The notes beneath the pieces were generated by a model. It did not search any database. It worked only from the letters and a program-made list of their open reading frames with translations, and was not told where the DNA came from. A stretch of DNA of 64,000 nt from Desulfocapsa sp. (GTDB lineage Bacteria; Desulfobacterota; Desulfobulbia; Desulfobulbales; Desulfocapsaceae): positions 1-64,000 of the forward strand of contig VMSP01000121.1 of the NCBI GenBank assembly GCA_013792135.1, written 5' to 3'. Numbering within the stretch: the stretch's first letter is position 1; each line of letters opens with the position of its first letter. This document shows positions 5,441 to 59,469 of the stretch, in pieces. A program made the translations under genes and the position numbers.

Positions 5441-5588
5441 CAGCACACGCTTCTTGAAAAATTAATCCACCTATTTTGCACAAGAAACAGGCAGCGGCGT
5501 AGAGGGGCTGCGATTCAACATGCTTTGGATAATAGATTCAAGCCAGAGCCACTACATGTTAAGAGAAAAAGGATACGATTATAATCCG

Positions 5589-5894
5589 TTATTTTTTCTC
5601 CTTCCCCTGACTCTCCTGCAACTCCTTGATCTGCGATTTCAGTTCGTCAAGGTCACTCATCCGGACAAGTTTCATCTTTTTCACGATTTCCTCAACTCGT
5701 TCTTCTATCTGTTTTTTAATATCTTCCTTGGCCTCTTCAACTTTGGCAAGAAGTTCCTCCACCAGTTTTTCCCCTTCTTGCTGGGAAAGTTTTCCCTGTT
5801 CGACAAAATCACGACCAATGTCCTCAATCTTTTCCTTGGTTAATGAGGCCACACCCAAACCAGTCAACATTGCCTTCTTGATCAGCTCAATCAT
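5589..5894 (-). CDS. Phasin-like small coiled-coil protein
   Basis: 101 residues. A short hydrophobic start (MIELIKKAMLTGLGVASLT) is followed by an almost continuous charged amphipathic helix with heptad character (KLVEELLAKVEEAKEDIKKQIEERVEEIVKKM). This matches the phasin / PHA granule regulator-like family common in deltaproteobacteria. No polyhydroxyalkanoate synthase is nearby, so a role at granules is unproven; it may be a general surfactant-like or membrane-associated protein. A very strong ribosome-binding site (AGGAGGT, seven bases upstream of ATG) suggests high expression. Confidence 0.7.
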   Translation of the reverse strand: MIELIKKAMLTGLGVASLTKEKIEDIGRDFVEQGKLSQQEGEKLVEELLAKVEEAKEDIKKQIEERVEEIVKKMKLVRMSDLDELKSQIKELQESQGKEKK

Positions 5895-5955
5895 TACTGT
5901 ACCTCCTGTCGTTGATTATCAATTATTACCACTCCATTCTTCATGAATACTACAC

Positions 5956-6942
5956 CTATAACTCTTTGCTTCGACAAAAAAAATTTTGGGCACGATCACA
6001 GGCCTGTTCCACAGAAGTACTGGTCTGAACAGCACTTGCCAGATAATGGCCAAAGGTAAAATTCTGTCCATAATAGTGGGTGAACTGTTTCAAACGCCCC
6101 AAGCGCCGTTCCGGACGAAAACGCTCCAGCAACTGGACAAAACGAAAATAAATATCCGAAAGACTCAAATTAGACGGAGCACATGATACTCCATAAATAT
6201 CTCTGGCAATTTCAGCAAACAGCCAAGGCCGACAGGCGGCGCCCCGACCAATCATCAGGCCATCCGCCCCGGAAAGTGCAAGACATTTTTTTGCATCCTC
6301 AACACTGAAAATACCGCCATTGGCCAGCACCGGTATCTTTAAAGCAGATTTAATTTTGCCGATCCAGTCCCAGTGCGGACGACGACAAAATTTTTCCCCA
6401 TGCAGACGTCCATGCACGGAAAGAAGATCAACTCCTTCGCTTTCCAGCATCTGACAAAAATCAACCAGTTTTTCTTCATTCAAACTTGTACCAAGACGAA
6501 TCTTGGCGCTCAAGGGTAGGCTGCTGGCACATCTGAGCATAGCGACTATATGACGTACCTGCTCATGATCATTGGTCAAAGCGCACCCTGCCCCCTGTCT
6601 ACGAAGATTGGGGGCAGGACAGCCAAGATTCAGATCAATCCCCTGGGCGCCAAGTTGGTGCAGACGTTCAACTGCAGGCACCACATCCTGACCGGGGCTC
6701 ACGAAGAGCTGATAAAAAAGTGGCTGTTCTTCAGGGGAACGAAAGAGAAAGGGCGAGACAATGGCATTCTCCTGAGGAAGCCTGGTCACCGATAACATTT
6801 CCGTAAAGAGGAGCCCGACCCCACCTAACTCCAGAGTCAGGGTACGCAGCGCCGAATGGGAGAGTCCGACCATGGGGGCCAACGCCAAAGGTGGCGATAG
6901 AGTCAACCCACCAATGGAAAGCGATGCGTCCGTTATTGGCAT
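5956..6942 (-). CDS. tRNA-dihydrouridine synthase
   Basis: FMN-dependent TIM-barrel enzyme that reduces specific uridines of tRNA to dihydrouridine. It shows the N-terminal LAPMVGLSHSALR, the catalytic cysteine in DLNLGCPAPNL, the substrate-handling HGRLHGEKFCRRPHWDWIGKIK and the phosphate-binding ANGGIFSVEDA ... GADGLMIGRGA. I start at MPITDASL (6942), ten bases after the stop of the upstream gene. The track start at 6996 would overlap that gene by 44 bases and adds a non-family N-terminus. Which Dus subfamily (A, B or C) cannot be settled by eye. Confidence 0.87.
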   Translation of the reverse strand: MPITDASLSIGGLTLSPPLALAPMVGLSHSALRTLTLELGGVGLLFTEMLSVTRLPQENAIVSPFLFRSPEEQPLFYQLFVSPGQDVVPAVERLHQLGAQGIDLNLGCPAPNLRRQGAGCALTNDHEQVRHIVAMLRCASSLPLSAKIRLGTSLNEEKLVDFCQMLESEGVDLLSVHGRLHGEKFCRRPHWDWIGKIKSALKIPVLANGGIFSVEDAKKCLALSGADGLMIGRGAACRPWLFAEIARDIYGVSCAPSNLSLSDIYFRFVQLLERFRPERRLGRLKQFTHYYGQNFTFGHYLASAVQTSTSVEQACDRAQNFFCRSKEL

Positions 6943-6952
6943 TAGCAGCGCT

Positions 6953-9313
6953 TTACTTATGCCACTGCAGAAGAAGATTTTTAAGATCATCCGCACCTAT
7001 GGGCTGATCAAATCGCACATGAACACGATAATTCTTGTCAATATAATCCTGTAATGACACCCCGATAATCTCTCCCTTACGCTCCAAGACCTCATCTGTT
7101 CCCATGGGCAGAGATGAGACAATACGTCTGCCCAATAGCAATCGCGCATTTTCTTTTTTGGAGAGACGGATCATTAGCGAGAGACCGCCAAGAGAGAGAT
7201 CCTCTACCTGCCCCCTGAATTTCTGTTGCGATGTGTTGTCCTTACCATCCAACAAGTTGTTGACAATGATCTGCTGCACTGAATGACGGATCTCCTCACG
7301 ACGATTTTCACCGGATTTTTTCAAAAGTTCATGAATTTTGTCTGATCTACGACAAAAATCACCCAAGCTGGACTCAAGCCCTGGATGCTGCACCAATAGC
7401 TTCAGGAAATCTTCCCTTTCCAGAATTTGCACCTTCACCGCACTCATGGCAACAAGTGTCACCGTCCATACCGAGACATCAAAAAAAGGACCAACCCCGA
7501 CAATCTCTCCCGGCTTCATACGCTTAATAAATATCTCTTTTTGGCCCTGTCTGCAGGTCAGGCTAACCGTTCCCGCATTGATAAAATACAGGGTGGAATT
7601 GATATCCCCTTGCCGGACTATCACCTCTTCGGCTTTATACTCCTGAAAACGCTGACAATGGTACAAGGCAGTGAAGCTATCAGAGGCTAAAAAGTCATAC
7701 AACTCACTCCAAAGGCTGAGATGATGACTGCTGATGGCGTTACTCTTTTCTTCCTCTATGGCCTCACTTACTCGAATAACCTCAATCAAGGCATTTGGAT
7801 TCACCGCCAGCATCCGGTCACGCAAAATCTCTGCCGTCACAAAATCTTTTTCTTTTGCCGCATGAACAGCATGTTCAGCAATCAAAGCCGTAACTTCTTT
7901 TATCTTTTTCGCCTGCAAAAATTGCTGAATCTGAATGTCCAGATCACGCAGATTCAGTCTTGCCCGTTGTTCAGCCTCAGAGTCAGATGCGAAAGACACT
8001 CCTATCTCCTTATCAACACTTGATTTAGCCACAGGTTGCAATTGTGGTTCAATAATCTGCAAGGTGCGCCTGGCAATAAGACTTACTGAATCATGTCCAT
8101 TTTTCCCCTGTTTCCCGCGTTCGGCCACAAGCTGTCGTAATAAAATAACGGTTCGTTGTTTTGGCACCAGACGCAGGGCTATACAGAGTTGTCCAAGAAG
8201 ATCCTCGCGAACATGGGCGGCAATGGCATCACGCTCTGCCAGAAGATCGAGTAGTATGTCAGCACACTCTAAACTGCATCCAAGCTGCCCCAACCAGGTA
8301 ACCAGGGGGGCCTTGAGTTCATCGTCAACCAGGGACAGGGCAGACAAAAGATATTTCTTTTTATCCACACCCCCAAGGTCATGAATACAATCAATGACCT
8401 GCTGCTGGACCCGAATATCCACATCTTTGAGTGAGGGGAGCACCAACGGGACAAGTGAGGAATCACCCATGACTGCAATAAGCAGAACAATATTCCGTAT
8501 TCCGTACCACGGCAGATCTTTGGTCAGATATTCCTTGAGCACAGGCACAGCAACCTTACCCGTCTCTGGAATCAATTTAATGAGACGCAGTCGCTCATTT
8601 TTTTGTTGCGACTGCAGTAACTTCTCAAGGAGAAAGATAACCGAACGGCGGCCGAGCCGGGTCAGGATCTTCTCAGCCAGAATCTGTCGCCCCCCCTGGC
8701 CATTTAGACAAACGAGAGTCAGCTCCTCAAGGATATGCTCAACTGCCAGTGTATCCAAGGTTCTAGCAACCAATCCCCGAATTACATTCCCTTTTTCCAG
8801 TACACCGGATTGAATCTGGAACAGGATCTCCAGCAGTGAATCAAACTGTTGCCAACGTCCCTCATCCAGCATCCTGAGCCCATTCTGTTGTAACTGTCGG
8901 CAAACTGTTTCACAAACCGGATAATATGTTGTTTCCACCTTTAACCAATGCGCCAGCATAAATGTCACTTTGTCCAGCAACTCGACGTGTTCCTCGGCGG
9001 ACAAAAGACCAGAACAAAAAGAAAGGGCCATGACTGCACGTTCCCGGATCGCGCCATCCTCATCGCAGGCATGCTTACCTAATTTTTCCACAAGACTTTC
9101 GGCACGACCAGGAGGCCCATCATGAGAGGCAACAATAATCCGTTGTGATATATTGCCAACAAATTCATCGTGCAACAACACTTTGATGTTTCCCAATTCG
9201 AATTCTTCAAGCTGACGCGACAGCCGAAGGTGAGCCCTCTGTTTTTCACCTGCAGCCATCAACTCTTTGGCTTTTTGCAAAGCCTGTTCTTTTTGTTCCT
9301 GATCGATATCCAT
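6953..9313 (-). CDS. HEAT-repeat / cyclic-nucleotide-binding / PilZ multidomain protein
   Basis: 786 residues, apparently cytoplasmic. Residues 1-420 are leucine-rich helical repeats of HEAT type (for example VPVLKEYLTKDLPWYGIRNIVLLIAVMG). At about 545-660 lies a cNMP-binding fold (EVIVRQGDINSTLYFINAGTV ... MKPGEIVGVGPFF). The C-terminus (about 665-780) is a PilZ domain with an arginine pair in RREEIRHSVQ and the DLSLGGL motif expected to bind cyclic di-GMP. Binding of both nucleotide classes is inferred from family knowledge. The output is unknown and there is no DNA-binding domain. It is followed ten bases later by dus, so the two are probably cotranscribed, and it is divergent from the KamA-type gene. 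Confidence 0.8.
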   Translation of the reverse strand: MDIDQEQKEQALQKAKELMAAGEKQRAHLRLSRQLEEFELGNIKVLLHDEFVGNISQRIIVASHDGPPGRAESLVEKLGKHACDEDGAIRERAVMALSFCSGLLSAEEHVELLDKVTFMLAHWLKVETTYYPVCETVCRQLQQNGLRMLDEGRWQQFDSLLEILFQIQSGVLEKGNVIRGLVARTLDTLAVEHILEELTLVCLNGQGGRQILAEKILTRLGRRSVIFLLEKLLQSQQKNERLRLIKLIPETGKVAVPVLKEYLTKDLPWYGIRNIVLLIAVMGDSSLVPLVLPSLKDVDIRVQQQVIDCIHDLGGVDKKKYLLSALSLVDDELKAPLVTWLGQLGCSLECADILLDLLAERDAIAAHVREDLLGQLCIALRLVPKQRTVILLRQLVAERGKQGKNGHDSVSLIARRTLQIIEPQLQPVAKSSVDKEIGVSFASDSEAEQRARLNLRDLDIQIQQFLQAKKIKEVTALIAEHAVHAAKEKDFVTAEILRDRMLAVNPNALIEVIRVSEAIEEEKSNAISSHHLSLWSELYDFLASDSFTALYHCQRFQEYKAEEVIVRQGDINSTLYFINAGTVSLTCRQGQKEIFIKRMKPGEIVGVGPFFDVSVWTVTLVAMSAVKVQILEREDFLKLLVQHPGLESSLGDFCRRSDKIHELLKKSGENRREEIRHSVQQIIVNNLLDGKDNTSQQKFRGQVEDLSLGGLSLMIRLSKKENARLLLGRRIVSSLPMGTDEVLERKGEIIGVSLQDYIDKNYRVHVRFDQPIGADDLKNLLLQWHK

Positions 9314-9466
9314 AATAAAAAATTATTAAGAAAATAAAAACATCTGGAGCAAAATGCTCAATTCGACACTCACCAACCATAAGCCGCAAAAAATCATCTC
9401 ACAACGAGGGGAAATAAATATTTACCAAATTGACATTTCAGGAATGATATTCCATAATGCCAAACT

Positions 9467-10516
9467 ATGAAAAAATGGCAAGACATACTAAAGGACTCCA
9501 TAACCAGTCCGGCAGCTTTGAATGAGTATTTCAATGTTAACATTACCCCATTAGATGAGGTAATAGCAACATTTCCCATGCGGATTAATTCCTATTACCT
9601 GAAATTAATCCAGAAGATCGGCGACCCTTTGTGGAAACAGGCTGTCCCGGATGTTGCAGAATTACATGACTCTATCTGTATTGAAGATCCCCTTGCTGAG
9701 GAGAATCTGAGTCCGGTACCCAATCTGGTTCACAAATATCCCGACCGGGTGTTGTTCCTGGTATCCAACCAGTGTGCCATGTATTGCCGATTCTGTACCA
9801 GAAAACGAAAGGTTGGAACGGGGAAGATGGTAATCAACCAAGAGAGCATCCTGGCAGGATTGGACTATATCCGCCATCACCCACAGGTCCGTGAGGTGCT
9901 CCTCTCAGGCGGAGACCCGCTACTCCTGTCGGATTTCCAGATTGAATTTATTCTGCGTGAGCTGCGTTTGATTCCATCTGTAAAGGTGATCCGTATTGGT
10001 ACCAGAGTACCCTGTACTTTGCCCATGCGGATAACCCCGGAGCTGGTAGACATCCTGAAAAAATATCATCCGCTTTACATCAACACCCATTTCAACCATC
10101 CTGCAGAGATTACACCGGAGGCCAGCGCTGCCTGTACCCTTCTGGCCGATGCTGGCATCCCGATGGGATGCCAGACCGTTCTCCTGAAAGGGGTCAACGA
10201 CAGCCCGGAAACCATGCGGGAGCTCTTATTGAAACTCTTGGAAATACGCGTAAAGCCCTACTATCTCTTCCAGACAGATCTTACCCTGGGTACCAATCAT
10301 TTCCGTACACCAACCGTGACAGGGATAAAAATAATGCGCAGCTTGATCGGCCATATTTCGGGACTGGCTGTGCCCACCTTTGCCCTCGACGGCCCAGGCG
10401 GCAAAGGGAAGATCCCACTCACACCGGATTACATTTTGACCAGAGGGGATAAGCTCGTTTTTGAAAATTATCGCGGTGAAATCTGTACCTACCCTGAATC
10501 AGGAGATGGAATCTGA
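9467..10516 (+). CDS. KamA-family radical SAM protein (lysine 2,3-aminomutase-like)
   Basis: 349 residues. The radical-SAM cluster motif is CAMYCRFCTRKRKVG (CxxxCxxC), followed by the SAM-binding GGDPLLL. The C-terminal LDGPGGKGKIPLTPDY contains the glycine-flanked lysine that holds PLP in lysine 2,3-aminomutases. The substrate is uncertain: free lysine (osmolyte or fermentation) or the lysine of elongation factor P. Neither an acetyltransferase of the AblB type nor efp/epmA is adjacent, so the pathway cannot be assigned. The gene is monocistronic and divergent from the HEAT/PilZ gene. Confidence 0.85.
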   Translation: MKKWQDILKDSITSPAALNEYFNVNITPLDEVIATFPMRINSYYLKLIQKIGDPLWKQAVPDVAELHDSICIEDPLAEENLSPVPNLVHKYPDRVLFLVSNQCAMYCRFCTRKRKVGTGKMVINQESILAGLDYIRHHPQVREVLLSGGDPLLLSDFQIEFILRELRLIPSVKVIRIGTRVPCTLPMRITPELVDILKKYHPLYINTHFNHPAEITPEASAACTLLADAGIPMGCQTVLLKGVNDSPETMRELLLKLLEIRVKPYYLFQTDLTLGTNHFRTPTVTGIKIMRSLIGHISGLAVPTFALDGPGGKGKIPLTPDYILTRGDKLVFENYRGEICTYPESGDGI

Positions 10517-10707
10517 GGGTTTGGCCGTGTACATGTCGATGTTTTAAGTGTTATGTTTTAAATTTTACATTATAATCTTTTATCATGAAACTGCTGACGC
10601 AGGCTCAAGCAAAGTATTTATGGACAGCAGCGCCTGTATCACCTCTCGACACGTGTAAACAATAAGAAAAAGCATTACCTCAAATTTTCAACCTTGTATC
10701 GTGTATC

Positions 10708-12258
10708 ATGCATCCGGAAGATATTCTCAAGACTGTTCTCAGTTCCACTGAACTTCCCACCCTGCCAACTGTCGCCTCGGCGCTCATCTCCTTGACATCA
10801 CGGGAAGACACTACCTTGACGGACATCGCGGATTTGGTTTCAAAAGACATCGCCCTGTCAGCAAAGATTCTCAAGGTATCCAACTCCGCCTTTTACAGCT
10901 TTCCCCAGCAAATCGGTTCAATCAATCAGGCAGTTTCAATCCTCGGCATTAACGCTGTCCGTTCCCTGGTTCTTTCTTTTTCATTTCTTTCCATCAGGAC
11001 TGGGAAAAAAAGCGACCATTTTGATTTTCAAAAATTTTGGGAACGCTCTCTTGCTTCCGCAGTTGCCGCCAGACTGATCTTGGGTAAGGTGAAAGGGGCA
11101 GACACCGAAGAGATCTTCATTTCTGGACTTCTGCAAAACCTTGGTGAGTTAATCTTTGCTAAAACCTTTCCTGATGAATATGAAAAAGTTCTTTGCCAGT
11201 TAGATGAAGAGCAAGGAACAGCTGCAGAAATAGAGAAAAAGCTAATAGGGGTTGATCACTGTTTTATCGGCTATGAAGTAGCAAAAAGTTGGGGTTTTCC
11301 TGAGGTCTTACTGCTCCCAATCCTGTTCCATCATGATCCGCAACAATACGCTGGTCAAAATCTCAAGATCAAGGCAACAACTAATGCCGTATACCTATCT
11401 GATATTCTGATCAATATCCTCACGTCTCACAGCCCGGAAGAGTATCATAAGAAGTTCCAAAAAGAGGCAAAAAAACTGTTCGGACTGAGCGGCGCTGACA
11501 TCAACAGCATCCTCTCCGACCTACATCATCAGCTAGATCAAGCTGCGGCCTATTTTGGCCTGAATATCAAAAACACCAAATCAATCCAGGAGATCCTGCA
11601 AGAGGCCAATATCAAACTCAGCCTGCTCAATCTCAATTACGACCAGATAAATCAACAACTGGTGCAGACCAAGATCAAACTGGAAAATCTCACAGTGGAA
11701 CTCCAGAAAAAAAACAAAATCCTGGACAATCTGGCAAACATTGACGGGTTAACCGAGGTCTATAACCACCGTTATTTTCAGACCAGCCTGGATAAGGAGA
11801 TTAATCGCTCAATCCGTCACCAGACCACGATTTCTCTACTTCTTATTGATATCGATCATTTTAAGAATTTTAATGATACCTACGGTCATCAGGCAGGAGA
11901 TTTTGTGTTGAAAAAATTTTGTGAGATCTTACAGGATAATCTCCGAAAATATGACACCTTGGCTCGTTATGGTGGTGAAGAATTTGCGATCATTCTCCCC
12001 GAGACATCAGAAGAAGATGCCTTACTGGTGGCCGAAAAACTTCGTGCAGCCATTGAAAACGCTACTTTTGTTGACCTGAACCATGAATACCACGTCACAG
12101 CAAGTTTTGGCCTTACCAGCTCCTCCCCTGGCAAAGTTGACAATTTTAACAAGAATAATTTTATCAATCAGTCAGACTTGGCCCTCTATGATGCGAAAAA
12201 AGAGGGCAGGAACCGGGTGGCAGTCTATGGTCCTAAAAAGAAATGGTTTAAATTTTAG
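10708..12258 (+). CDS. HDOD and GGDEF domain protein (diguanylate cyclase)
   Basis: 516 residues. The N-terminal HDOD domain (about 10-205) starts TELPTLPTVASALISLTS and includes the LVSKDIALSAKILKVSNSAFY helix. A helical linker with coiled-coil character (QQLVQTKIKLENLTVELQKKN) leads to the GGDEF domain (about 345-510), with active site RYGGEEF. An RxxD inhibitory site (RKYD) lies five residues before it, so an active, product-inhibited diguanylate cyclase is expected. There is no membrane segment. It converges on priA. Confidence 0.88.
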   Translation: MHPEDILKTVLSSTELPTLPTVASALISLTSREDTTLTDIADLVSKDIALSAKILKVSNSAFYSFPQQIGSINQAVSILGINAVRSLVLSFSFLSIRTGKKSDHFDFQKFWERSLASAVAARLILGKVKGADTEEIFISGLLQNLGELIFAKTFPDEYEKVLCQLDEEQGTAAEIEKKLIGVDHCFIGYEVAKSWGFPEVLLLPILFHHDPQQYAGQNLKIKATTNAVYLSDILINILTSHSPEEYHKKFQKEAKKLFGLSGADINSILSDLHHQLDQAAAYFGLNIKNTKSIQEILQEANIKLSLLNLNYDQINQQLVQTKIKLENLTVELQKKNKILDNLANIDGLTEVYNHRYFQTSLDKEINRSIRHQTTISLLLIDIDHFKNFNDTYGHQAGDFVLKKFCEILQDNLRKYDTLARYGGEEFAIILPETSEEDALLVAEKLRAAIENATFVDLNHEYHVTASFGLTSSSPGKVDNFNKNNFINQSDLALYDAKKEGRNRVAVYGPKKKWFKF

Positions 12259-38185: not shown

Positions 38186-38587
38186 TCAGCACTTAACGGT
38201 TCCCTGTGCTTCCGTTATCGATCTGAGAATACGACAGAATTTCTCATATGAAATATGCTGATTCATACCTGGACAGGATTCTTTGATGGTTGCAAAATTG
38301 TTTTCATCGGTCAGCAGCGAGGGATGCAGCGGCCACTGTCCGCAACGCCAGGGGCGTCCGGTATGGACTGTGCAGCCATTATCATAGAAGATACAATGAC
38401 CATCCACAATTTTCATCTGGGTGACATTACCAGTCACGCGCCAAAATTTTTCCCGCACCTCGTCTTCACTTAAGCCCAGGGCCTGAACCATGCGCTGCCG
38501 ATCATTCTCGTCAAGCGAGACGGTTGTCTCGCCCTGACAGCAATAGCCACAACGCTGACACTCAAATATCTGTTTCATCTCATCCAT
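38186..38587 (-). CDS. YkgJ-family cysteine cluster protein
   Basis: 133 residues. The N-terminal FECQRCGYCCQGETTVSL and later CIFYDNGCTVHTGRPWRCGQWP are the CxxCxxCC and C..C motifs of the YkgJ (zinc or iron-sulfur chelating) family. Function is unknown; a redox or metal role is the usual guess. It lies between yqgE and rlmH. Confidence 0.85.
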   Translation of the reverse strand: MDEMKQIFECQRCGYCCQGETTVSLDENDRQRMVQALGLSEDEVREKFWRVTGNVTQMKIVDGHCIFYDNGCTVHTGRPWRCGQWPLHPSLLTDENNFATIKESCPGMNQHISYEKFCRILRSITEAQGTVKC

Positions 38588-48993: not shown

Positions 48994-50820
48994 CTACTTA
49001 CAGGGAAGAGTGACAACAACGGTTGTTCCCAGATCCGGTTCACTCTGAAAGGTCATGGTCCCGCCATGTTCCTCAATGATCTTCATGGACATGGCAAGCC
49101 CTAAGCCGGTACCTTCCGGTTTTGTGGTAAAATAAGGGTCAAAGATGCGAGACAGATCTTCTTTGTTCACGCCGCAGCCTGTATCTTTGACTGTAAAGAG
49201 AATATTCCTGCCCTGCTTCATGACTTGAATGTCCAATTGTCCACCCTGCTCCATGGCTTGGATGGAATTCAAGAAGAGATTAAGAAAAACCTGATTGAGC
49301 TTATCCTGATCGGCCGACAGCAAAGAAAGATTGTCTTCCATCAGGACTTTCACCATTACCCCCATTGATTCCGCATCAATGCGGATGAGCGATACCGCTT
49401 TGTGCACCACCTCTTCGGGGCGAATATTGTCTTTGTTTAATTTCTGGGGACGGGCATAATCGAGCAATTCACCGATACTGCGGTTCAAGCGCTCCACCTC
49501 CTGCACCAGGATGTCTGCCGTTTCCTGATCGCTGCTCTTTTCCTGGAATCTGGATTTCAGTAAAATAGCCAGCCCCTTGATGGAACTCAATGGGTTCCTC
49601 AGTTCATGGGCAACACCCGCAGCCATCTTGCCAAGGGCAGCCAACCGCTCACTACGGCGCAACTCCTCTTCCAGAGATTTCACCTGACTCAGATCCTGAA
49701 TGAGGAGCATAACACCGGCGGAAGTACCGTCACTATCAACAACAGACCGGCTGTGCAGCTGAAGGGTTCGCATCTCCCCCTTGACATCGGTCAGAAGAAT
49801 CTCCTTTTGCACTGGGCCGGCAGTCGCTATTTGCTGATCATCAAGGGCCTGTGCCAGTGCAGGTGCCAATACACTTTCAGGTACAGCACCCACCACCTCA
49901 TTCTCAACCACCGAAGCCATCTGTTCAGCAAACTGATTGCAGAGAAGAATCTTTCCCTCGCTATCGGTGACAATCAATCCTACCGGTAGAGAAGAAATAA
50001 GGATATCACGAAAGGCCTTGATTCGGCTCAATCTACTCTGTGATCCCTTTAGCCCTTCAAGGGTCAATAGAGACAGCCAGCCACCGACTCCAACCAGGAG
50101 GAGGACAACGGAAAGAATCACAATCTGGAGAAGCTGCTGTCTGACCGCCCTGTTAAATTGCTCCAGATCAAGCTCCACCAAAATAATATATTTTTGTTGA
50201 CTCACCCGTTCCAACTCGTCAATCCATTCCGGGGGAAATAAATGATGTCTCATCATTCGCCCCATCATTCCCTGGCCACCACGTTTCGATCCATCCATTG
50301 GCGGCCCACCCTGTAACCCTATTGGCCTTTGGCCAATAGGAACAAAAAGAGCTGCTACCTGAAAGGCTGTGGAATTATCACGTCCACCGATACGATAACG
50401 AAATCTGCCCTGATCATGACTTTTCTGATCAATTGAGCCAATAAACTCAAGAGTCTCTTTATCGATACGAGTATCGACCTCTGCAGAAGCCGAAGTGGCA
50501 ACGATCTTTCCCGAAGAATCGACCAGGGCCAGAAAATGCACACCCGGATGTTCAGCAGCACGACCCAGGATTTCCTGCACATTTTCCGACCATTGCCACA
50601 CAGGCACCAGACCTTCCCTTGCGCCATCGAGAAATGAGGCCCGGGCGCCGGAGGTCACAAAGCGAATAAGGGTCATTCCACGCTCAAGCAGGACATCGGT
50701 CATCAGCCTTTTTTCACGCTGGTAATTATTGACAGCAAAGACCCCGATGATCAACGACAGTAAAGCACAGGCAGCAGCCAACACCCACGGGGAAACCAGG
50801 GCAAGACGCTGTCCTTTCAT
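48994..50820 (-). CDS. Membrane sensor histidine kinase with PAS domain
   Basis: About 608 residues. Two membrane segments (ALVSPWVLAAACALLSLIIGVFAV near the start; LLQIVILSVVLLLVGVGGWLSLL near 240) enclose a periplasmic domain of about 190 residues. That domain contains the Met/His/Gly-rich stretch GGQGMMGRMMRHHLFPPEW. Next come a PAS domain (about 275-390), HisKA with the histidine in GVAHELRNPLSSIKG, and HATPase with LNQVFLNLFLNSIQAM and GTGLGLAMS. The layout resembles ZraS/AtoS kinases that work with NtrC-type regulators, but no regulator gene is near. The start at 50820 overlaps the upstream stop as ATGA; the track start at 50829 is the alternative. Confidence 0.88.
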   Translation of the reverse strand: MKGQRLALVSPWVLAAACALLSLIIGVFAVNNYQREKRLMTDVLLERGMTLIRFVTSGARASFLDGAREGLVPVWQWSENVQEILGRAAEHPGVHFLALVDSSGKIVATSASAEVDTRIDKETLEFIGSIDQKSHDQGRFRYRIGGRDNSTAFQVAALFVPIGQRPIGLQGGPPMDGSKRGGQGMMGRMMRHHLFPPEWIDELERVSQQKYIILVELDLEQFNRAVRQQLLQIVILSVVLLLVGVGGWLSLLTLEGLKGSQSRLSRIKAFRDILISSLPVGLIVTDSEGKILLCNQFAEQMASVVENEVVGAVPESVLAPALAQALDDQQIATAGPVQKEILLTDVKGEMRTLQLHSRSVVDSDGTSAGVMLLIQDLSQVKSLEEELRRSERLAALGKMAAGVAHELRNPLSSIKGLAILLKSRFQEKSSDQETADILVQEVERLNRSIGELLDYARPQKLNKDNIRPEEVVHKAVSLIRIDAESMGVMVKVLMEDNLSLLSADQDKLNQVFLNLFLNSIQAMEQGGQLDIQVMKQGRNILFTVKDTGCGVNKEDLSRIFDPYFTTKPEGTGLGLAMSMKIIEEHGGTMTFQSEPDLGTTVVVTLPCK

Positions 50821-52523
50821 AAAACGCATCTTCGATCCCCGGGTGGATTGAGAATCTTCTGCACTAAAACCTTAGTAATAAGATAGGTGGGAACGATCCC
50901 CTCCAGCCCCAAAGAACCAGCGGCCAGGGTCTGTCCTCCATGCAGAGGATTATCCGAGGCATAGTAAGCATAACGAATCCGGATATGGGAAGAGATATGC
51001 CCTTGAATAACCGCGGCATTAATAGCACGCTGATAATGCCCCCCCTCCATTTCCAGCCCCACCGCCTTCCAGCTGGAGCTATAGAAACGCTCCAGGATAT
51101 CACGATTCTGCAGAGAGGTCCCGAGAACCGTCACCATCGGCCCCACATAGACCACCGCCTTCCCTTCAAAATCCTCAGCTCTCAAATCATTAGCCACAAT
51201 GTAGTTATGGGGCGTCCCTTCCATAACATGGGCTGTGGCCAGCATGATATCCCCCTTTTTCCCGGGCAGGATACCCGCCTTGCCCATTATGGAAATTGAC
51301 TCAATGCGAAAGATGATCGTTTCTTCTTCGAAATGACAGGGACACAACAGTTCATCCATAACGTCAAAGGCCTGGGTGCCAAAGGCATAATCCATGACCA
51401 CAATCACCGGCTTTTCTTTCTGGAGATAATCAGGGTCAATGGACAGATCAGGATGGAGGCTGTTACTATCAATTGTTGCCGCATCAATGATCATGACATC
51501 AATATTCGACCCTGAAAGATCAGGCAGGAAGGAAAATCCATATTGCTGAGCTAAGGTGTCCACCTCTTCTTCCTTTCCCTTCAGGGTGGGGATCATATCA
51601 TAAAGACTGGCGGGAATACTCTCTCCCATTTTCCTCAAGGCTCCAGCGCCATACAAGACATTTTTCACCGAATGCATATTGGCGCTGATGATATGGAGAG
51701 GACGCTCATGAAGCCCCCGTTCATAAATATGGTTTTTCACCGCCTGCGCCCAAGCTGTTGCATATTGATGATGTCCGATCATATCTTGTAGTGACGGAGT
51801 GAAATAAATGGTCAGATGCTCATCAGCTGATTTATGTTCACTGATAATACGTTCTCCCATCGCGTAAATAATAGAAAATAAACCATTATTATATCGCTGA
51901 CCATGATGTGTCTTATTCATACTCTCATAGGTTGCCCGCGTCTCTTTATAGGTACGGCCAAGGATAATCGAAAGATTCCAGATGGCCTGATCCAGGACCG
52001 CCCCCTCAAGCACCAATTCTCCTTGCGCGGCCTTGCCCAGATCATGCCATTCGGAACAGGTTCCTCCTTCCTTATCGCAGATCTGCTGCTGGATCTTCTG
52101 GGCCTCTATATTCAAAAAAGTGATATGAGTCAGGATATCGTACACTTCGGTCAGACCCTTGGTAATGACAAAACAGATCTCCTTTTCAGAGACGACATAG
52201 GATAACCGCCGACGTTTCAAGGGAATGACCTGTTCAAACGAGGTATTCTGAAAGTCCTCATGGCCGGTGAGGATAATGCGATTGCAATTTTCGATCCCCT
52301 TTGGCATCCTGTCAATCACATACTCAAGTCCCTGCAGCTCCACAACGCGAAGATCGCTCATGGACCCATAAATCTCCGGAGAAAACAGTTTTAATGATTC
52401 CGCCAGTTTTTCTCCGGTTTTACCAGAAGGTTTATAGTTACCCCGCAAGGTCAGGGCATCAGCCAGGGTTTTAAAAGTGTGAATGGCAAGACGTGCTTTT
52501 TGTGATTTTGTAAGATCCTGCAT
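50817..52523 (-). CDS. Conserved protein of unknown function (DUF6909-like)
   Basis: 568 residues, no signal peptide or membrane helix. The opening KTLADALTLRGNYKPSGKTGEKLAESLKLFSPEIYG resembles what I remember as the DUF6909 family. The last third contains KAVGLEMEGGHYQRAINAA, like the substrate loop of nucleoside-phosphorylase-fold enzymes, and several short beta-strand/Asp motifs (DVMIIDAAT; VIVVMDYAFGTQAFD). The middle has HHGQRYNNGLFSIIYAMGERI. A catalytic role on a nucleoside or phosphate substrate is inference. A GAGGAG ribosome-binding site lies six bases from the ATG. It is coupled to the downstream histidine kinase. Confidence 0.7.
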   Translation of the reverse strand: MQDLTKSQKARLAIHTFKTLADALTLRGNYKPSGKTGEKLAESLKLFSPEIYGSMSDLRVVELQGLEYVIDRMPKGIENCNRIILTGHEDFQNTSFEQVIPLKRRRLSYVVSEKEICFVITKGLTEVYDILTHITFLNIEAQKIQQQICDKEGGTCSEWHDLGKAAQGELVLEGAVLDQAIWNLSIILGRTYKETRATYESMNKTHHGQRYNNGLFSIIYAMGERIISEHKSADEHLTIYFTPSLQDMIGHHQYATAWAQAVKNHIYERGLHERPLHIISANMHSVKNVLYGAGALRKMGESIPASLYDMIPTLKGKEEEVDTLAQQYGFSFLPDLSGSNIDVMIIDAATIDSNSLHPDLSIDPDYLQKEKPVIVVMDYAFGTQAFDVMDELLCPCHFEEETIIFRIESISIMGKAGILPGKKGDIMLATAHVMEGTPHNYIVANDLRAEDFEGKAVVYVGPMVTVLGTSLQNRDILERFYSSSWKAVGLEMEGGHYQRAINAAVIQGHISSHIRIRYAYYASDNPLHGGQTLAAGSLGLEGIVPTYLITKVLVQKILNPPGDRRCVL

Positions 52524-52699: not shown

Positions 52700-53131
52700 T
52701 TACCCTTTTTTAAACGCCAGGCCAAAACTGTTCAGACCTAGAAGGCCAGTGGCATCGCCGCCGAAGAGATCCAAGAAACTGCTGTCTGCCAAGTTACAGC
52801 GAAACCCTTGGCAGGAAAGGGGACGATAGTGGTAGATTTTGCAGTAGTATAATCCATTGCGGCACTGAAGGAAAACGCAGCCCTTATCATCGGGATGGAT
52901 CATGTAGACCTTGCCCTTTTCTTTGTTTTCTTCGACAAGCTGGCTCAGAGGTTTTTCCCGAAGTTGACGCAGAGTGGCATCAATTCCGACATAGCCCCCC
53001 ATCTTTTTTATAAATTCCACCTCATCCCCATGGAGCAGTACTTTTTTGTATCGTTTGCAACAGGTTCCACATTGACGGCATTCCGGGAAGATGGTTTTAA
53101 GGGTGGTATTGTCGAGGTTTGGTATGTTCAT
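52700..53131 (-). CDS. YkgJ-family cysteine cluster protein
   Basis: 143 residues. FPECRQCGTCCKRYKKVLL at the start, then CVFLQCRNGLYYCKIYHYRP and LSCQGFRCNLA form the eight-cysteine pattern of the family, thought to bind zinc or an iron-sulfur cluster. It is the third gene of a run with the GNAT and deacetylase-like genes, 34 bases after the latter. It is distinct in sequence from the other YkgJ-type gene at 38.2 kb. Confidence 0.83.
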   Translation of the reverse strand: MNIPNLDNTTLKTIFPECRQCGTCCKRYKKVLLHGDEVEFIKKMGGYVGIDATLRQLREKPLSQLVEENKEKGKVYMIHPDDKGCVFLQCRNGLYYCKIYHYRPLSCQGFRCNLADSSFLDLFGGDATGLLGLNSFGLAFKKG

Positions 53132-53165
53132 GATGTTTTAGACTTTATTATGCAAACTCAGCACA

Positions 53166-54194
53166 TTAAATGGTCCAATATTTTCGTAAAGGATGATCAA
53201 CCAGGATCTTCTCAGCTCGAGGGACTGACAGGATACCTGGTCTGTCAAAATCTTTTTGGAGCATGGCGTCAATAGTCGCTATTACTGATTTTTCCAAGGA
53301 CACAGAGTTATAACCTCCCTCCATGACATAAAGCAGGCGATTGTTGCAACTCTCGAAGGCGTATCGCCGAAGAAGATGAGTCACCGTGGCATACCACTGG
53401 GTGCTCAAAAGTATTCCGCTGATCGAGTCATCGACATGAGCATCATAACCAGCGGACACCAGGATAAACTGAGGCAAGTATTGCTCTACCAGGCCCTGAA
53501 GCAAACGACCGAGAAGATAGGTATATTCTTTGTCACCAAACTGAGGATGGACAGGGAGATTTACCGTATATCCAACTCCCGCCTCCGTCCCTATCTCATC
53601 CGCGTCACCAGTGAAAGGAAAGATTCCCTTCTGGTGAATGGAAAATACAAGAACCTCGTTGGTGTCATAAAATATATCCTGAGTGCCATTGGCATGATGG
53701 ACATCAAAATCCAGAATAAGAATGCGCTTTAGGCCGTAGTTTCGGCGAAGATATTCTGCGGTAATCGCAACATTGTTGAAAATACAAAAGCCCATTCCCC
53801 TCCCTGCTGACGCATGATGACCAGGAGGGCGAACAAGCGAAAAACCGTAATCCAGCTCACCTTCCATGATACGCTCTGCCAGGGCAAGGCAGCCACCTGC
53901 CGCCAACTTGGCCGTAGGAAGAGAGTCTTCCATCAGGTAGGTGTCACGGTCGTATGAGAAGGGATCAGATTTTACGGCATGTTCGCGGAGTTGTTCCACA
54001 TAAAACAATGAGTGCACCATACTGATTTCAGTACTGGTTGCCTCCCGCGGCGAGATATGACATGTATTCTTGTTGTATTTTTCCTGCTGCAAGTGCAGAT
54101 AGAGACTGCGTAACCGGTCAGGATTTTCCAGCGATGGATTGGCAATCGCATGGTGCAGATATCTGCTGTCAAAAACCAGACCGAGCCTACTCAT
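53166..54194 (-). CDS. Histone-deacetylase / acetoin-utilisation family hydrolase
   Basis: 342 residues with a complete zinc deacetylase active site: VRPPGHHASAGRGMGFCIFN (histidine dyad), ILDFDVHHANGTQDIFY (metal ligands), SAGYDAHVDDSISG (third ligand) and the catalytic tyrosine in MEGGYNSVSL. Bacterial members remove acetyl groups from protein lysines or from small molecules such as polyamines; the substrate here is unknown. The start overlaps the stop of the upstream GNAT gene by 8 bases, so acetylase and deacetylase are coupled. Confidence 0.9.
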   Translation of the reverse strand: MSRLGLVFDSRYLHHAIANPSLENPDRLRSLYLHLQQEKYNKNTCHISPREATSTEISMVHSLFYVEQLREHAVKSDPFSYDRDTYLMEDSLPTAKLAAGGCLALAERIMEGELDYGFSLVRPPGHHASAGRGMGFCIFNNVAITAEYLRRNYGLKRILILDFDVHHANGTQDIFYDTNEVLVFSIHQKGIFPFTGDADEIGTEAGVGYTVNLPVHPQFGDKEYTYLLGRLLQGLVEQYLPQFILVSAGYDAHVDDSISGILLSTQWYATVTHLLRRYAFESCNNRLLYVMEGGYNSVSLEKSVIATIDAMLQKDFDRPGILSVPRAEKILVDHPLRKYWTI

Positions 54195-54753
54195 AATGAA
54201 ATTGATAAATGGGATGTGCTTGGTAGTGCTCGGCGGTCAGTCGGCAGAGATGCCCTGTCCTTTTTTTCTGCTGATCGTCATAGACCAGTGATTCAATTAG
54301 TTCAAAACCAAGTTTTTGCAGACATCGCTGCTGAGCAGTGTTGTTGATGTCTGTATGCATCTCAACTGCCTCCACCGGAAGCTGCTCAAAGATATACATA
54401 ATGAGGAATTTCTGAATCTCAGTACCATACCCCCTACCCCGTTCTTCGGGGATGGCTACTTTCAGGGCCATGGAGACGGTATTTCGTCTTCCTGGGGAGT
54501 GCCAGTAATGGGCCGTACCAATGGGACGCCCATCTTCTTTTAACTCCACCAGAAACATCTTCTCCCTGTCACTCCAGAAGACACTGGAATGAATCTGCTG
54601 ACGCATCTGCTCTGCATCGTGTTTTCCTAGGCTCAGATATTCACCGCAGGCCTTTTCCGATTGGCTCCAGGCGACAATAAGGGCTATATCAATTTCCTGA
54701 ATTTTTCTCAAGACTAACCTGCGGGTAAACAGCCTGTCACCATAAAGACTCAT
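54187..54753 (-). CDS. GNAT family N-acetyltransferase
   Basis: 188 residues of RimJ/RimL-like GNAT fold. RLVLRKIQEIDIALIVAWSQ opens the domain, the acetyl-CoA loop is IPEERGRGYGTEIQKFL, and NNTAQQRCLQKLGFELIESL closes it. The substrate is unknown. It is the first gene of a GNAT-deacetylase-YkgJ operon. A short inverted repeat (54769-54810) lies just upstream. Confidence 0.87.
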   Translation of the reverse strand: MSLYGDRLFTRRLVLRKIQEIDIALIVAWSQSEKACGEYLSLGKHDAEQMRQQIHSSVFWSDREKMFLVELKEDGRPIGTAHYWHSPGRRNTVSMALKVAIPEERGRGYGTEIQKFLIMYIFEQLPVEAVEMHTDINNTAQQRCLQKLGFELIESLVYDDQQKKRTGHLCRLTAEHYQAHPIYQFHYE

Positions 54754-54768
54754 ATTCCCTCAAAATTG

Positions 54769-54810
54769 GTTACGGCGCCAAACCCTATAAAAGAGGTAAA
54801 GCGCCGCAAC
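54769..54810. repeat. Short intergenic inverted repeat
   Basis: GTTACGGCGC and GCGCCGCAAC pair with one mismatch around a 22-base loop. It lies between the chemoreceptor stop and the GNAT start, both on the minus strand. A following CTCCTTATGCC also follows the inverted repeat at 2614-2664, so the two may belong to one degenerate family. Confidence 0.35.
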
Positions 54811-54864: not shown

Positions 54865-57800
54865 TTACATTTCACTGACGGCCTTATTCAGCTCGGTACT
54901 TGAGGCCTTAAGCCTGTTCAGTGCCTCGATGGTACCATCAATGGAGAAATTGACAGCCTTGGTAGATTCCTTATTCTCGCGGGAAGAGCTGACGACGCTG
55001 CCGAGTTGCACCTTGACGGCCTGTCCATTCTCACTGAGGATATCCGCCTTCTTGTCCAGTGCATCAACAGAACTGGAGATAGTGACAATACCCGTGGATA
55101 TTTTTTCCATGGAATCAAGGGCTGTCTTGATGACTTCACTGCCGTCTCCAAGCATTTTCATGCCGTCCTTCATGGCGACAATGGTCTCTTTGGACTCGGA
55201 CTCCACTTTTTTGACTATATTGGCAATATCCACTGCTGATTTGGATGATTTTTCCGCAAGTTTACGGACCTCATCGGCAACCACGGCAAAGCCTCGGCCG
55301 GCATCTCCTGCCCGGGCTGCTTCAATGGCGGCATTAAAGGCCAGAAGATTGGTCTGAGAAGCAATCTCTTTAATGATATCAACAAATCCCCCGATTTTTT
55401 CAAGCTGACTTACCAGGTTAGCAACCATCTGATTCGAGCTGCCCATGGATTCATTGATGGCCAGCATCTTTTTGCTTGCATCTGCACCTGCCTTCTTCCC
55501 CTGCTCAGCATCTCCGGCAACACCGGCTGCCATCTCACTGGATTGAGTGGTGAGCTCCACCATCTCTTTGGCAAAGTTGAGCATACCGTCGACCGTAAAG
55601 GATGCCTCGCTCAGCAAATTGACCTCCCGTTCGATAAGCTGTTTCATGGCGTCAATGGAGTGATTGGCCTCACTCATTTTCAGCAAAGAGTCGGAGACCA
55701 GAGATTCCACCTCGGATGAGGCCTCATTGATCAACCGCCCCACTGCTGCTTCCGAGGTCACGTCCACCATGTACTCCAACCCACCCTTTATATTGCCCTT
55801 GGCATCTTTAATAGAAACACTGGTAACCTTGATCGGGATCCCCTTACCATTAATATGGGCGGTGGTCTGTTCCGAGATCGTGGTGTTGCCGCGGATGGCC
55901 CGCTGGATTCCACAGTTTTCAGTTTTACAGTGATCCTTGCCGAAAAGATCCCAGCACTTTTTTCCCAGAGCATCTTCCACGGACATTCCGGCCATAGCTG
56001 CACCGGCAGGGTTGATATAGGTAACGACGAAATTCAGATCGACGGCATGAATGGGATTGGGGATAACATTAAGATTTTCAATCTTCTCGTTGGCCTCCTG
56101 CCGCTGCCTGGCCTCTGCTGTGATATCAAGGACAAATTCCAACGCCCCTTTGATATTGCCCTTGGCATCTTTGATCGGAGCCCCGGTATACTTGATGGGG
56201 ATGATCGCCCCGTCCTGAGGTCTGGCAATGGTCTCTTCGCTGACGACTCTGTCTTCGCGCATGGCCCGTCCTACGGCACATTTTTCCGTCCGGCAGTGAG
56301 CTGTCTTGAAGAGATCATAGCATTTCTTACCAATTGCCTCATCAGGACTGAGTCCAACAACCCCTGCCCCTGCGGGATTCATAAAGGTGACGTTGAAATC
56401 CGTATCAATGGACATGATTGGCGTAGGAATGGCATTGAGATTTTCGATCTTCTCATCCGACGCCTGTTTCTGTTGCGCCTCTTCGGTGATGTTGAGGATA
56501 TATTCGAGGGCCCCCTTGATATTGCCCTTGGCGTCCTTAATGGGAGAACCTGTGTACCTGATGGGAATAATAACCCCTTCAGCAGGCCGGGCAATGGTCT
56601 GTTCGGTGACCACCGAGTCGGTCTTCATGGCCTTGGCACAGGCACACTTTTCCGTCTTGCAATGAGGAGTTTTAAAGAGATCATAACACTTCTTGCCCAC
56701 TACCTCGTCCGGGGTCATACCTGCGATACTCGCCCCCGCAGGATTCATGAAGGTGATGTTGAAATCGGTGTCAATGGCAAGAATCGGGGTGGGGATTGTG
56801 TTGAGATTATTGATCTTCTCATCCGCCGCCTGTTTCTGTTTCGCCTCTTCGGTGACATCAAGGATGTATTCCAGTGCTCCTTTGATATTACCCTTGGCAT
56901 CCTTGATCGGAGCACCGGTGTACTTAATGGGGATAATCACCCCTTCCGCAGGCCGGGCAATGGTATATTCGGTAACCACCGAGTCGGTCTTCATGGCTCG
57001 TGCACAGGCACACTTTTCCGTCTTACAATGGGGGGTTTTGAAAAGGTCATAGCACTTCTTGCCTACGACTTCGTCAGGAGTCATCCCGGCCACGGCTGCC
57101 CCGGCCGGATTCATGAAGGTGATAGTGAAATCGGTGTCAATGGCCAGAATCGGAGTGGGGATGGTATTGAGATTATTGATCTTCTCATCCGCCGCCTGTT
57201 TCTGTTTCGCCTCTTCGGTGATATCAAGGATATATTCGAGTGCGCCCTTGATATTACCCTTGGCGTCCTTGATGGGGGCACCGGTGTACCTGATGGGAAT
57301 GATCACTCCATCAGCAGGCCGGGCAATGGTCTGCTCAGTGACAACGGAGTCGGTCTTCATGGCTCGTGCACAGGCGCACTTTTCCGTCTTGCAATGGGGG
57401 GTTTTGAAAAGGTCATAACACTTCTTGCCTACGACTTCGTCAGGAGTTTTTCCAACCACGGATGCCCCTGCCGGGTTCATGAAGGTAATGGTAAACTTGT
57501 CGTCAATCTCCATGATGGGAGTAGGAATGACATTGAGATCAGTCTCCATCTGACGCAACCTGGCCTGGAGTTCTTTGGTCGACGTGATGTCACGCATGGT
57601 GACCAGCGTTCCACCTTTTTCCGCCAGCGGAGTTGCTTTGGAATGGTACCAGGAGACCTTCCCGTTATTGTTATACAGTACATCACCCTCGGCCATCTTT
57701 TTCAATCGTGTCGCCTTGTTTACTGGGCAGTCCTTGGTACCGCAGAGCTGTGTAAGACAACTCTCTTCGCAGGTGAACTTCCCGTCAATCTGGTTCGCCT

Positions 57801-57936
57801 TGAGATTAAACTCTTTGAGAAAGGCCTCATTTGCCCAGGTGATGCCCATATCGTCATTGACAAGATAGCTTGGTTCCGTCAACAGGGAAAAACAGGAATC
57901 TTCAATTGTTGTCGGGTTTGATGAAACACTGGACAT
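54865..57936 (-). CDS. Soluble methyl-accepting chemotaxis protein with six PAS domains
   Basis: 1023 residues without membrane segments or HAMP. An N-terminal PAS (about 10-120) is followed by five more at 122-residue spacing, then the MCP signalling hairpin (about 740-1010) with [21 protein letters not shown] and [20 protein letters not shown]. Each PAS carries a cysteine motif: [11 protein letters not shown] in the first, [13 protein letters not shown] in the next three, [13 protein letters not shown] and [13 protein letters not shown] in the last two. Metal, iron-sulfur or redox sensing is inference. The receptor lies right after a triple-CheW gene (3-base gap), with which it is surely cotranscribed. 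No other che genes are in the window. Confidence 0.93.
56077..57541. repeat. 366-bp tandem repeat encoding PAS units
   Basis: Four near-identical units lie inside the chemoreceptor gene at an exact 366-base period. The landmark CACTTTTCCG occurs at 57377, 57011 and 56645, and a variant at 56279. A fifth, more diverged unit keeps the same spacing near 55913. The high DNA similarity indicates recent duplication and likely unit-number variation by recombination. Confidence 0.85.
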
Positions 57937-57939
57937 ACG

Positions 57940-59469
57940 TTACCCCCTTATTTCAATGTTAGTAAATGACTCTTCTATGAATTCAATCTCTTCGTCTTTC
58001 AAGGTCTGATTTGGAGATGATATATCCGATCGCAAGTGATTGTTGATCAGGTTGTGGGTATTGACAACCAGAACGTGTTCCGTGATTTGTTTTTCACCAA
58101 TAAATTCAATGAGACGGTCCAGAGTATCTCTCTTTGGTTGCAACTGAGCGTTTAATGATGGTGTTGGGTAATACTGCTCCTGCTTGTAAATAGTAGTGAT
58201 ACTATCCACCTGCAGTCCAATAACCTGCTTACCGTCACGGCAGATGATGAGTTTGAAGTTATTCCCCACATTTTTCTGTTGAGGGTAACCGTAAAACTGA
58301 CGAAGGTCGATCACCGGAATAATCTGTCCTCGCAAATTAAAAACTGCTGAGTCAAAACCCCTTACCGCAGGAATAGACATAAGCAGTTCGCGCTCTATAA
58401 TTTCCTGTATATCCCTGAGTTCTAGGGCAAAATTTTTACCAATGGAAAATATAAGGTAACAGTTCTCAGTGATCAGGTGCCTGGCCTTGGCCACAGCAGC
58501 TTTTTCATCCTCATCGACATCGGTATTGATTCGAGCCATGGATTTAAGGTGCTCGACTTGAGTGGCTATCAGGTTTTCAACGTCAAGGAGCATAATATTC
58601 CGATCAGGTTCAGGCTCATAAATACCGACTACGGACTGCTCACTTCTTGCAGGCATCAGGAGGATATCTTCATTGACCACTGTGAGAATCTCCAGAATTT
58701 CATCAATGACCATCCCAAAAATAAGAGAACCAGCAGACATGACCAGAATGCGGCTTAATTCACTCTCGCTTTCGCCAACCTTACCGCCATTAAGAAGAGC
58801 CCCGGCACTCATGATGGGAATGGTATGACCTCGCAATTGCAAGGCACCTTCCAGAGAGTCAGTCTTGAACGTGGGATCGATGTCAGTGAGAAAAGTTATT
58901 TCCCGAGAATTCTCCACCGGAATCCCATATTCATGACCATCTGCAGAAAAGATCACATACCTGGAATAGGTTCGAATCCGGGAGGCCTCGGTCTGGACCT
59001 TGGAATTTGCAGACTGAGAGACAAGCAGACTGCTATCACCAAAGATCCTGTTCAGATCAAGAACTTCAAGTGTACGTTGCTGATCTTTAAGAGTAATAAG
59101 GTCGGAGATAATATAATCGGTGGATTGCAGGGCTGGCTGAACAGGAATGATCAGCGATTCTTCTACACGTAGAACTTCTCTGATATCATCAACAAGGAGT
59201 CCGAATCGCTGACTGGCAAGCATGACTACCGCAATTTTGGCATCTTGGTCGTACGTGGTTGCGCCCAGTCCCAGCCGTTTTTTCAAGTTAATTATAGGAA
59301 TAACTGCATCACGGAGATGCATGATTCCCTCCAGAAAAGGGACACTGGCAGGTAAGGGTTGAATATTGCCGGTGATGGGCGTCGCCTCGGTGACACTTTC
59401 GGCGCCAATTGCTATTTCCAGCCCCTGTTCTCGATCGAGAATAAATGATGCAAAAAGTTGTTCCGCCAT
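57940..59469 (-). CDS. Triple CheW-domain chemotaxis adaptor
   Basis: 509 residues consisting of three CheW-like domains in a row (about 1-150, 165-315, 335-490). Typical strands recur: VPFLEGIMHLRDAVIPIINLKK; FKTDSLEGALQLRGHTIPI; VRGFDSAVFNLRGQIIPVIDLRQFYG. CheW couples receptors to the CheA kinase; fused multi-CheW proteins may change array geometry. The gene ends 3 bases before the chemoreceptor start, so they form a receptor-adaptor pair whose kinase lies elsewhere. Confidence 0.9.
   Translation of the reverse strand: MAEQLFASFILDREQGLEIAIGAESVTEATPITGNIQPLPASVPFLEGIMHLRDAVIPIINLKKRLGLGATTYDQDAKIAVVMLASQRFGLLVDDIREVLRVEESLIIPVQPALQSTDYIISDLITLKDQQRTLEVLDLNRIFGDSSLLVSQSANSKVQTEASRIRTYSRYVIFSADGHEYGIPVENSREITFLTDIDPTFKTDSLEGALQLRGHTIPIMSAGALLNGGKVGESESELSRILVMSAGSLIFGMVIDEILEILTVVNEDILLMPARSEQSVVGIYEPEPDRNIMLLDVENLIATQVEHLKSMARINTDVDEDEKAAVAKARHLITENCYLIFSIGKNFALELRDIQEIIERELLMSIPAVRGFDSAVFNLRGQIIPVIDLRQFYGYPQQKNVGNNFKLIICRDGKQVIGLQVDSITTIYKQEQYYPTPSLNAQLQPKRDTLDRLIEFIGEKQITEHVLVVNTHNLINNHLRSDISSPNQTLKDEEIEFIEESFTNIEIRG

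Follow-up and report, generated by a model that had tools for sequence, protein, structure and literature searches.

Genes and features of the block

The window is the whole stretch of DNA under analysis (64,000 nt). A sequence-only reading of it had reported three adjoining genes, for a GNAT acetyltransferase, a deacetylase (HDAC) and a YkgJ-type (CxxCxxCC) protein; the three open reading frames and their positions were borne out, all on the minus strand, and each has a Pfam match. The interval 52700-54753, proposed as the unit, was too short; the trio is the tail of a five-gene unit on the minus strand, in the order triple-CheW, chemoreceptor (MCP), GNAT, HDAC, CxxCxxCC, and the MCP (54865-57936) and triple-CheW (57940-59469) genes had been left out. 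The features, from the first gene onward, are:

57940-59469, minus strand: triple-CheW protein, 509 aa, first gene of the block; Pfam CheW, three stretches, E 1.9e-59
54865-57936, minus strand: chemoreceptor (MCP), 1023 aa; Pfam PAS_4, six stretches; MCPsignal, E 5.3e-36
54773-54807, minus strand: stem-loop in the mRNA between the MCP and GNAT genes; RNA fold z-score -3.3
54187-54753, minus strand: GNAT acetyltransferase, 188 aa; Pfam Acetyltransf_3, 68.9 bits, E 9.8e-19
54187-54194, minus strand: overlap of the GNAT stop with the HDAC start, ATGAGTAG, exactly 8 bases, read from the sequence
53166-54194, minus strand: class II-type Zn-dependent deacetylase (HDAC), 342 aa; Pfam Hist_deacetyl, 310.8 bits, E 1.3e-92
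52700-53131, minus strand: CxxCxxCC (YkgJ-type) protein, 143 aa; PF03692, 31.4 bits, cut-off 23

Spacers: triple-CheW/MCP, 3 bases; MCP/GNAT, 111 bases; HDAC/CxxCxxCC, 34 bases. The overlap of 8 bases and the gap of 34 bases had been given by the earlier reading and are exact. The 8-base overlap recurs at 19 of the 23 loci measured, including those with GNAT identity as low as 44%; at the remaining four it is 11 bases (two loci) or is replaced by a gap of 66 (one locus) or a small gap (one locus). This recurrence supports the proposal of an operon in which the overlap would couple translation of the GNAT and HDAC genes.

The stem between the MCP and GNAT genes is also found at five related loci (six with the window, the closest relatives), with differing sequence; the stem-loop pattern of 54773-54807 gave a single match within the window. 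It was rejected as an intrinsic terminator, since the U-run is absent 3' of the stem and the terminator scan of the minus strand was negative for the MCP-GNAT interval; given the absent U-run, the stem-loop may govern how much receptor is made relative to the enzymes rather than end the transcript.

Downstream of the block, a DUF6909 protein (50817-52523) adjoins a sensor kinase (48994-50829); among the loci compared, the DUF6909 protein is shared only with the close relative G016.

Conservation and distribution

Locus set: 26 distinct loci with an HDAC orthologue (52-89% identity, window counted) were collected from genome contigs and whole genomes. Cultured carriers include Desulfobulbus rhabdoformis DSM 8777 and Desulfopila sp. 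IMCC35006. At all 26, the GNAT gene lies directly upstream of the HDAC gene, and an MCP gene of the same kind lies directly upstream of GNAT; the triple-CheW gene precedes the MCP gene at 16/16 loci with enough contig. The four-gene order is intact in the most distant member, L016 (identities: HDAC 52%, GNAT 36%, MCP 55%, CheW 41%).

Relatives: GNAT, the CxxCxxCC protein, the HDAC orthologue, the CheW protein and the MCP PAS repeat were each searched separately in 58 relatives. Separation of the genes in related genomes had been named in advance as the outcome that would speak against the set; instead the genes are kept together, all five occurring in the same 13 of the 58 (own genome counted) and a partial set in none, with the caveat that the CxxCxxCC gene of one carrier, G004, is present as two pieces only. 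Triple-CheW orthologues at E ≤ 1e-20 are found in exactly these 13 carriers, and in none of the 58 does the CheW protein or the MCP of the block occur unless GNAT and HDAC are there too. Within the genus the block is present in 5/17 genomes.

Phylum sample: the searches for GNAT, HDAC orthologue and CxxCxxCC in 395 genomes singled out one set of seven, from four families, and the fetched loci of these carriers have the same gene order. Both enzyme families are set well apart: HDAC orthologues score at least 578 bits (next match, 345), and the sharply bounded GNAT family scores 265-318 bits in the seven genomes, with no other match at E ≤ 1e-20 in the 395. Pairwise distances of the GNAT, HDAC and CheW proteins are correlated (r 0.91-0.92), as expected under joint inheritance. 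No distant HDAC relative (35-44% identity, L019-L086) is adjoined by the GNAT, the CheW protein or the MCP of the block type.

The co-occurrence of the three genes and the recurrence of the overlap are beyond chance; adjacency, for its part, would point to a shared function in outline only. Linkage without function, in which an old block was moved en bloc between motile bacteria, is very unlikely: the patchy distribution in the genus fits it, but order, overlap and spacing are kept down to 36-60% identity, CheW and MCP never occur among the relatives apart from GNAT and HDAC, and GNAT, HDAC and MCP are never separated, while the CxxCxxCC gene has been lost in places.

Chemoreceptor and triple-CheW protein

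MCP (54865-57936): the protein has six PAS domains, an MCP signalling domain and 23 Cys; no membrane segment was predicted by hydropathy, and the receptor is taken as soluble. Every PAS domain has a conserved Cys motif, of the form CX8CX4CXC in repeats 2-4, which may bind a metal or cluster; by alignment, the motif is kept among the orthologues though their repeat count differs. The PAS repeats of the window protein stand in tandem and are almost identical to one another. Orthologues (673-1032 aa) include some with fewer repeats, and the repeat number is therefore readily changed.

Methylation sites: the consensus [ASTG][ASTG]xx[EQ][EQ]xx[ASTG][ASTG] was scanned by pattern match, with the other MCPs of the genome as controls. 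The consensus CheR/CheB motif was not matched in the window MCP or in about 20 orthologues; among the seven other MCPs of the same genome it was matched 1-3 times in six and not at all in one. On this pattern match, the MCP lacks the usual target of CheR/CheB.

Chemosensory context: the block has an MCP signalling domain and CheW domains, and CheA is encoded elsewhere in the genome, which has two che clusters. CheA and flagellin are present in 13/13 carriers, and the block is present in 0/17 relatives that lack flagellin (Fisher p 0.006, uncorrected for kinship); there are many flagellated relatives without the block.

Upstream family: immediately before the triple-CheW gene, eight loci have a member of an orphan family of ca. 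130-145 aa that bears a Cys motif at the N-terminus (examples: L158:12348-12752; L159:412-855; L160:223-624; L018:293-691; L161:7904-8335). It gave no convincing Pfam match and is not present upstream in the window.

GNAT acetyltransferase

The GNAT fold and the acetyl-CoA binding loop are found by Pfam, by invariant residues, by the structural model and by Foldseek alike. R105, G108 and G110 of the acetyl-CoA loop are invariant in the alignment; the AlphaFold model (pLDDT 89.5) has a GNAT fold like that of RimJ/RimL/SpeG/AAC(6'). Foldseek neighbours in the PDB include SpeG (polyamine), AAC(6') (aminoglycoside) and peptide acetyltransferases; the best PDB match by sequence is AAC(6')-Im. Assignment of a substrate from Foldseek was abandoned, as hundreds of GNATs have a similar score. 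The enzyme may be a lysine acetyltransferase; the neighbours of the modelled fold include enzymes for peptides, for polyamines and for aminoglycosides.

HDAC

The motifs RPPGHH, DxDxHH, AG[YF]D and EGGYN are invariant in the alignment of 22 orthologues. The protein has the features of cluster 1: the catalytic His pair, the Asp-His-Asp metal site, the catalytic Tyr, RPPxHH and EGGY. RPPGHH together with EGGY is the mark of cluster 1 short-chain deacetylases and has been tied to small foot pockets and to deacetylation (PMC11532494). The nearest solved proteins by sequence are HDAC6, HDAC15 and HdaH (class II / bacterial cluster 1). KpHdaH and Pseudomonas HdaH (cluster 1, PMC11532494) share RPPGHH, EGGY and the catalytic residues with the block protein and are among its best PDB sequence matches; the block protein differs in its length of ca. 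340 aa, in a gatekeeper loop that reads SIS (PLG in HDAC6 domain 2) and in its operon context. Activity on acetyl-lysine is predicted.

Gatekeeper loop: polyamine deacetylases were recognised by a Glu gatekeeper (PEG) or by PIS in the loop that follows the metal-binding Asp. The window protein has SIS, with Ile258-Ser259 invariant and no Glu gatekeeper. HDAC10 deacetylates lysine more strongly once its Glu gatekeeper is changed to Leu, and the bacterial polyamine deacetylases (ApaH) have PIS, that is, Ile at the gatekeeper position (PMC11532494). A hydrophobic residue in the loop was dropped as proof against polyamines, since those bacterial enzymes also have Ile; SIS is close to their PIS, and the loop therefore does not decide the substrate.

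Possible small-molecule substrate: the main rival to a protein substrate is a small amine, for instance a polyamine or an amino sugar, that GNAT would acetylate and HDAC deacetylate. The PAS receptor would sense one of the two forms, and the operon would then be a sensor that carries enzymes to process its own ligand. It is agreeable to this that SpeG is among the Foldseek neighbours of the GNAT, that SIS resembles the PIS of ApaH (PMC11532494) and that a soluble receptor could read an intracellular ligand. Among solved proteins, lysine deacetylases (class II / cluster 1) are nevertheless nearer in sequence than the polyamine deacetylase HDAC10, ApaH does not appear in the top 60 matches, the Glu gatekeeper is missing, and the block has no gene of polyamine transport or synthesis; we regard this conversion as unlikely.

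CxxCxxCC protein

The score lies above the curated PF03692 cut-off and the Cys motif of the family is present. Eight Cys are kept in nearly all rows of the alignment, in CX2CX2CC and CxIYxxRPxxC (C-x-IY-x2-RP-x2-C); the protein probably binds an Fe-S cluster or Zn, judging by these motifs. The AlphaFold model has a mean pLDDT of 42.7. The basis for the metal-dependent partner proposed in the sequence-only reading is the CxxCxxCC motif; two loci lack the gene, and in another genome it is broken.

Occurrence: the gene is present at 22/25 loci where it would be visible and is missing at L009 and L016; in G004 (L165/L166) it is broken, with a 5' remnant and the 3' piece on another contig; in G016 (L169:7845-12849) a 5' remnant is followed by a hybrid sensor kinase gene, within an insert of 4.5 kb, and then by a full copy. 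Being absent, broken or displaced at some loci, it is an accessory part, usual but dispensable. A further CxxCxxCC protein is encoded in the window at 38186-38587, and the genome has seven in all. A general link of HDAC with CxxCxxCC was rejected as a rule: the 665 kb surrounding 67 distant HDACs gave one match, which is roughly the background.

Flagellar or general protein as possible target: FliB, which methylates flagellin lysines, holds a [4Fe-4S] cluster in the CxxCxxCC-like motif CX4CX3CC (PMC8598068). FliB and the block protein are alike in having such a Cys motif, and the lysine modification by FliB is linked to motility; the spacing in the block protein is CX2CX2CC, and the relation is a lead by analogy. 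One could then suppose that the pair acts on a flagellar or general protein (flagellin, a switch protein, a metabolic enzyme), that CxxCxxCC is a second lysine modifier, of the FliB kind (PMC8598068) and that the receptor is merely co-regulated. Co-occurrence of the block with flagellin is in keeping with this, but many flagellated relatives do without the block, the FliB motif is differently spaced, and no flagellar gene lies in or beside the block; such a target is quite unlikely.

Second HDAC locus and comparison with known systems

Second locus: L188 (G000:C67:20000-34000, positions 4840-11738), on another contig of this genome, carries genes for an HDAC, a CBS protein, an ADP-forming acyl-CoA synthetase, a CoA-transferase fused to a Pat-like GNAT and a CxxCxxCC protein. 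It looks like a metabolic version of a GNAT/HDAC operon; counting the receptor block, there are thus two places in this genome where HDAC, GNAT and CxxCxxCC are neighbours. In five relatives, too, a CxxCxxCC match lies 5-7 kb from an HDAC match.

acuABC: in B. subtilis, AcuA is a GNAT, AcuB a CBS/ACT adaptor for acetyl-CoA synthetase and AcuC an HDAC (PMC13039410). Both systems place the genes of a GNAT and of a Zn-dependent deacetylase beside a third gene; the block differs in having a chemoreceptor and a CheW protein, with neither a CBS/ACT adaptor nor a tie to acetyl-CoA synthetase, and its HDAC is nearest to class II / cluster 1, as against class I for AcuC. The earlier statement that the set is not a described system stands in part: co-encoding of GNAT and HDAC is known (acuA/acuC, with acuB third; PMC13039410), while the link to a chemoreceptor, which that reading had not seen, is undescribed in the literature covered. 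That the pair is a regulator of acetyl-CoA synthesis of the acuABC type, placed behind a receptor by happenstance, is highly unlikely. GNAT and HDAC do share an operon as in acuABC (PMC13039410), but the block contains neither a CBS/ACT gene like acuB nor one for an acyl-CoA synthetase, and a locus of that kind, L188, exists apart from it in this genome.

E. coli CheY/CobB: acetylation of CheY alters FliM binding, and loss of CobB changes chemotaxis in E. coli (PMC2883070), which gives a precedent for a switch. Reversible lysine acetylation on a chemotaxis system (PMC2883070) is predicted here also; it is served in E. coli by general enzymes and a sirtuin unlinked to chemotaxis genes, whereas GNAT and HDAC here lie in the operon of the receptor.

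Proposed function

Gene content and order, en bloc conservation, the overlap, the catalytic residues, the tie to flagella and CheA and the lack of a consensus methylation motif are direct observations. The best explanation of the block, which these observations favour and which we hold tentatively and at slightly short of an even chance, is a chemosensory operon that includes a dedicated GNAT/HDAC pair to acetylate and deacetylate protein.

In such an operon the soluble, Cys-rich PAS-repeat receptor would probably read a redox, metal or other intracellular signal, would work with the dedicated triple-CheW adaptor and would feed a CheA encoded outside the block. The coupled GNAT and HDAC would add and remove acetyl groups on one or more lysines of the receptor, of the CheW protein or of the CheA/CheY partners, and through this acetylation the level of acetyl-CoA, or the state of adaptation, would set the signalling output. 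That the substrate is a protein rather than a small molecule, which protein it is, in which direction the effect goes and whether the PAS and CxxCxxCC proteins hold metal is what we infer. Against a switch on a protein count the relatives of the GNAT by fold, its best PDB sequence match AAC(6')-Im, Ile258 of the HDAC (SIS), the nature of the methylation scan as a pattern match that one other MCP of the genome also fails, and adjacency as a guide to function in outline only.

Acetylation may provide such a unit with a means of adaptation distinct from methylation, or with a metabolic input. A more specific form, in which lysine acetylation by the dedicated GNAT and HDAC sets adaptation or gain of a chemoreceptor without methylation sites, as a counterpart of CheR/CheB that uses acetyl-CoA, is somewhat unlikely; such a counterpart, using acetyl-CoA, would thereby read the energy state of the cell.

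Acetylation of chemotaxis proteins is known chiefly from CheY of E. coli, where general enzymes carry it out and its purpose is debated. To our knowledge, most bacterial class II-type deacetylases are without a known substrate. No description of a chemoreceptor operon with its own acetyltransferase and deacetylase was found in the literature covered, most subscription journals lying outside that coverage; the pairing of GNAT and HDAC itself is already known from acuABC.

The findings suggest, and do not prove, that a chemotaxis receptor is tuned by acetylation in the bacteria that carry the block, which belong to several families of the sulfate-reducing type. If this is true, the function of acetylation in chemotaxis could be examined one gene at a time in a dedicated system; the block would also provide a possible second chemistry of adaptation beside glutamate methylation and a biological setting for a class II-type bacterial deacetylase.
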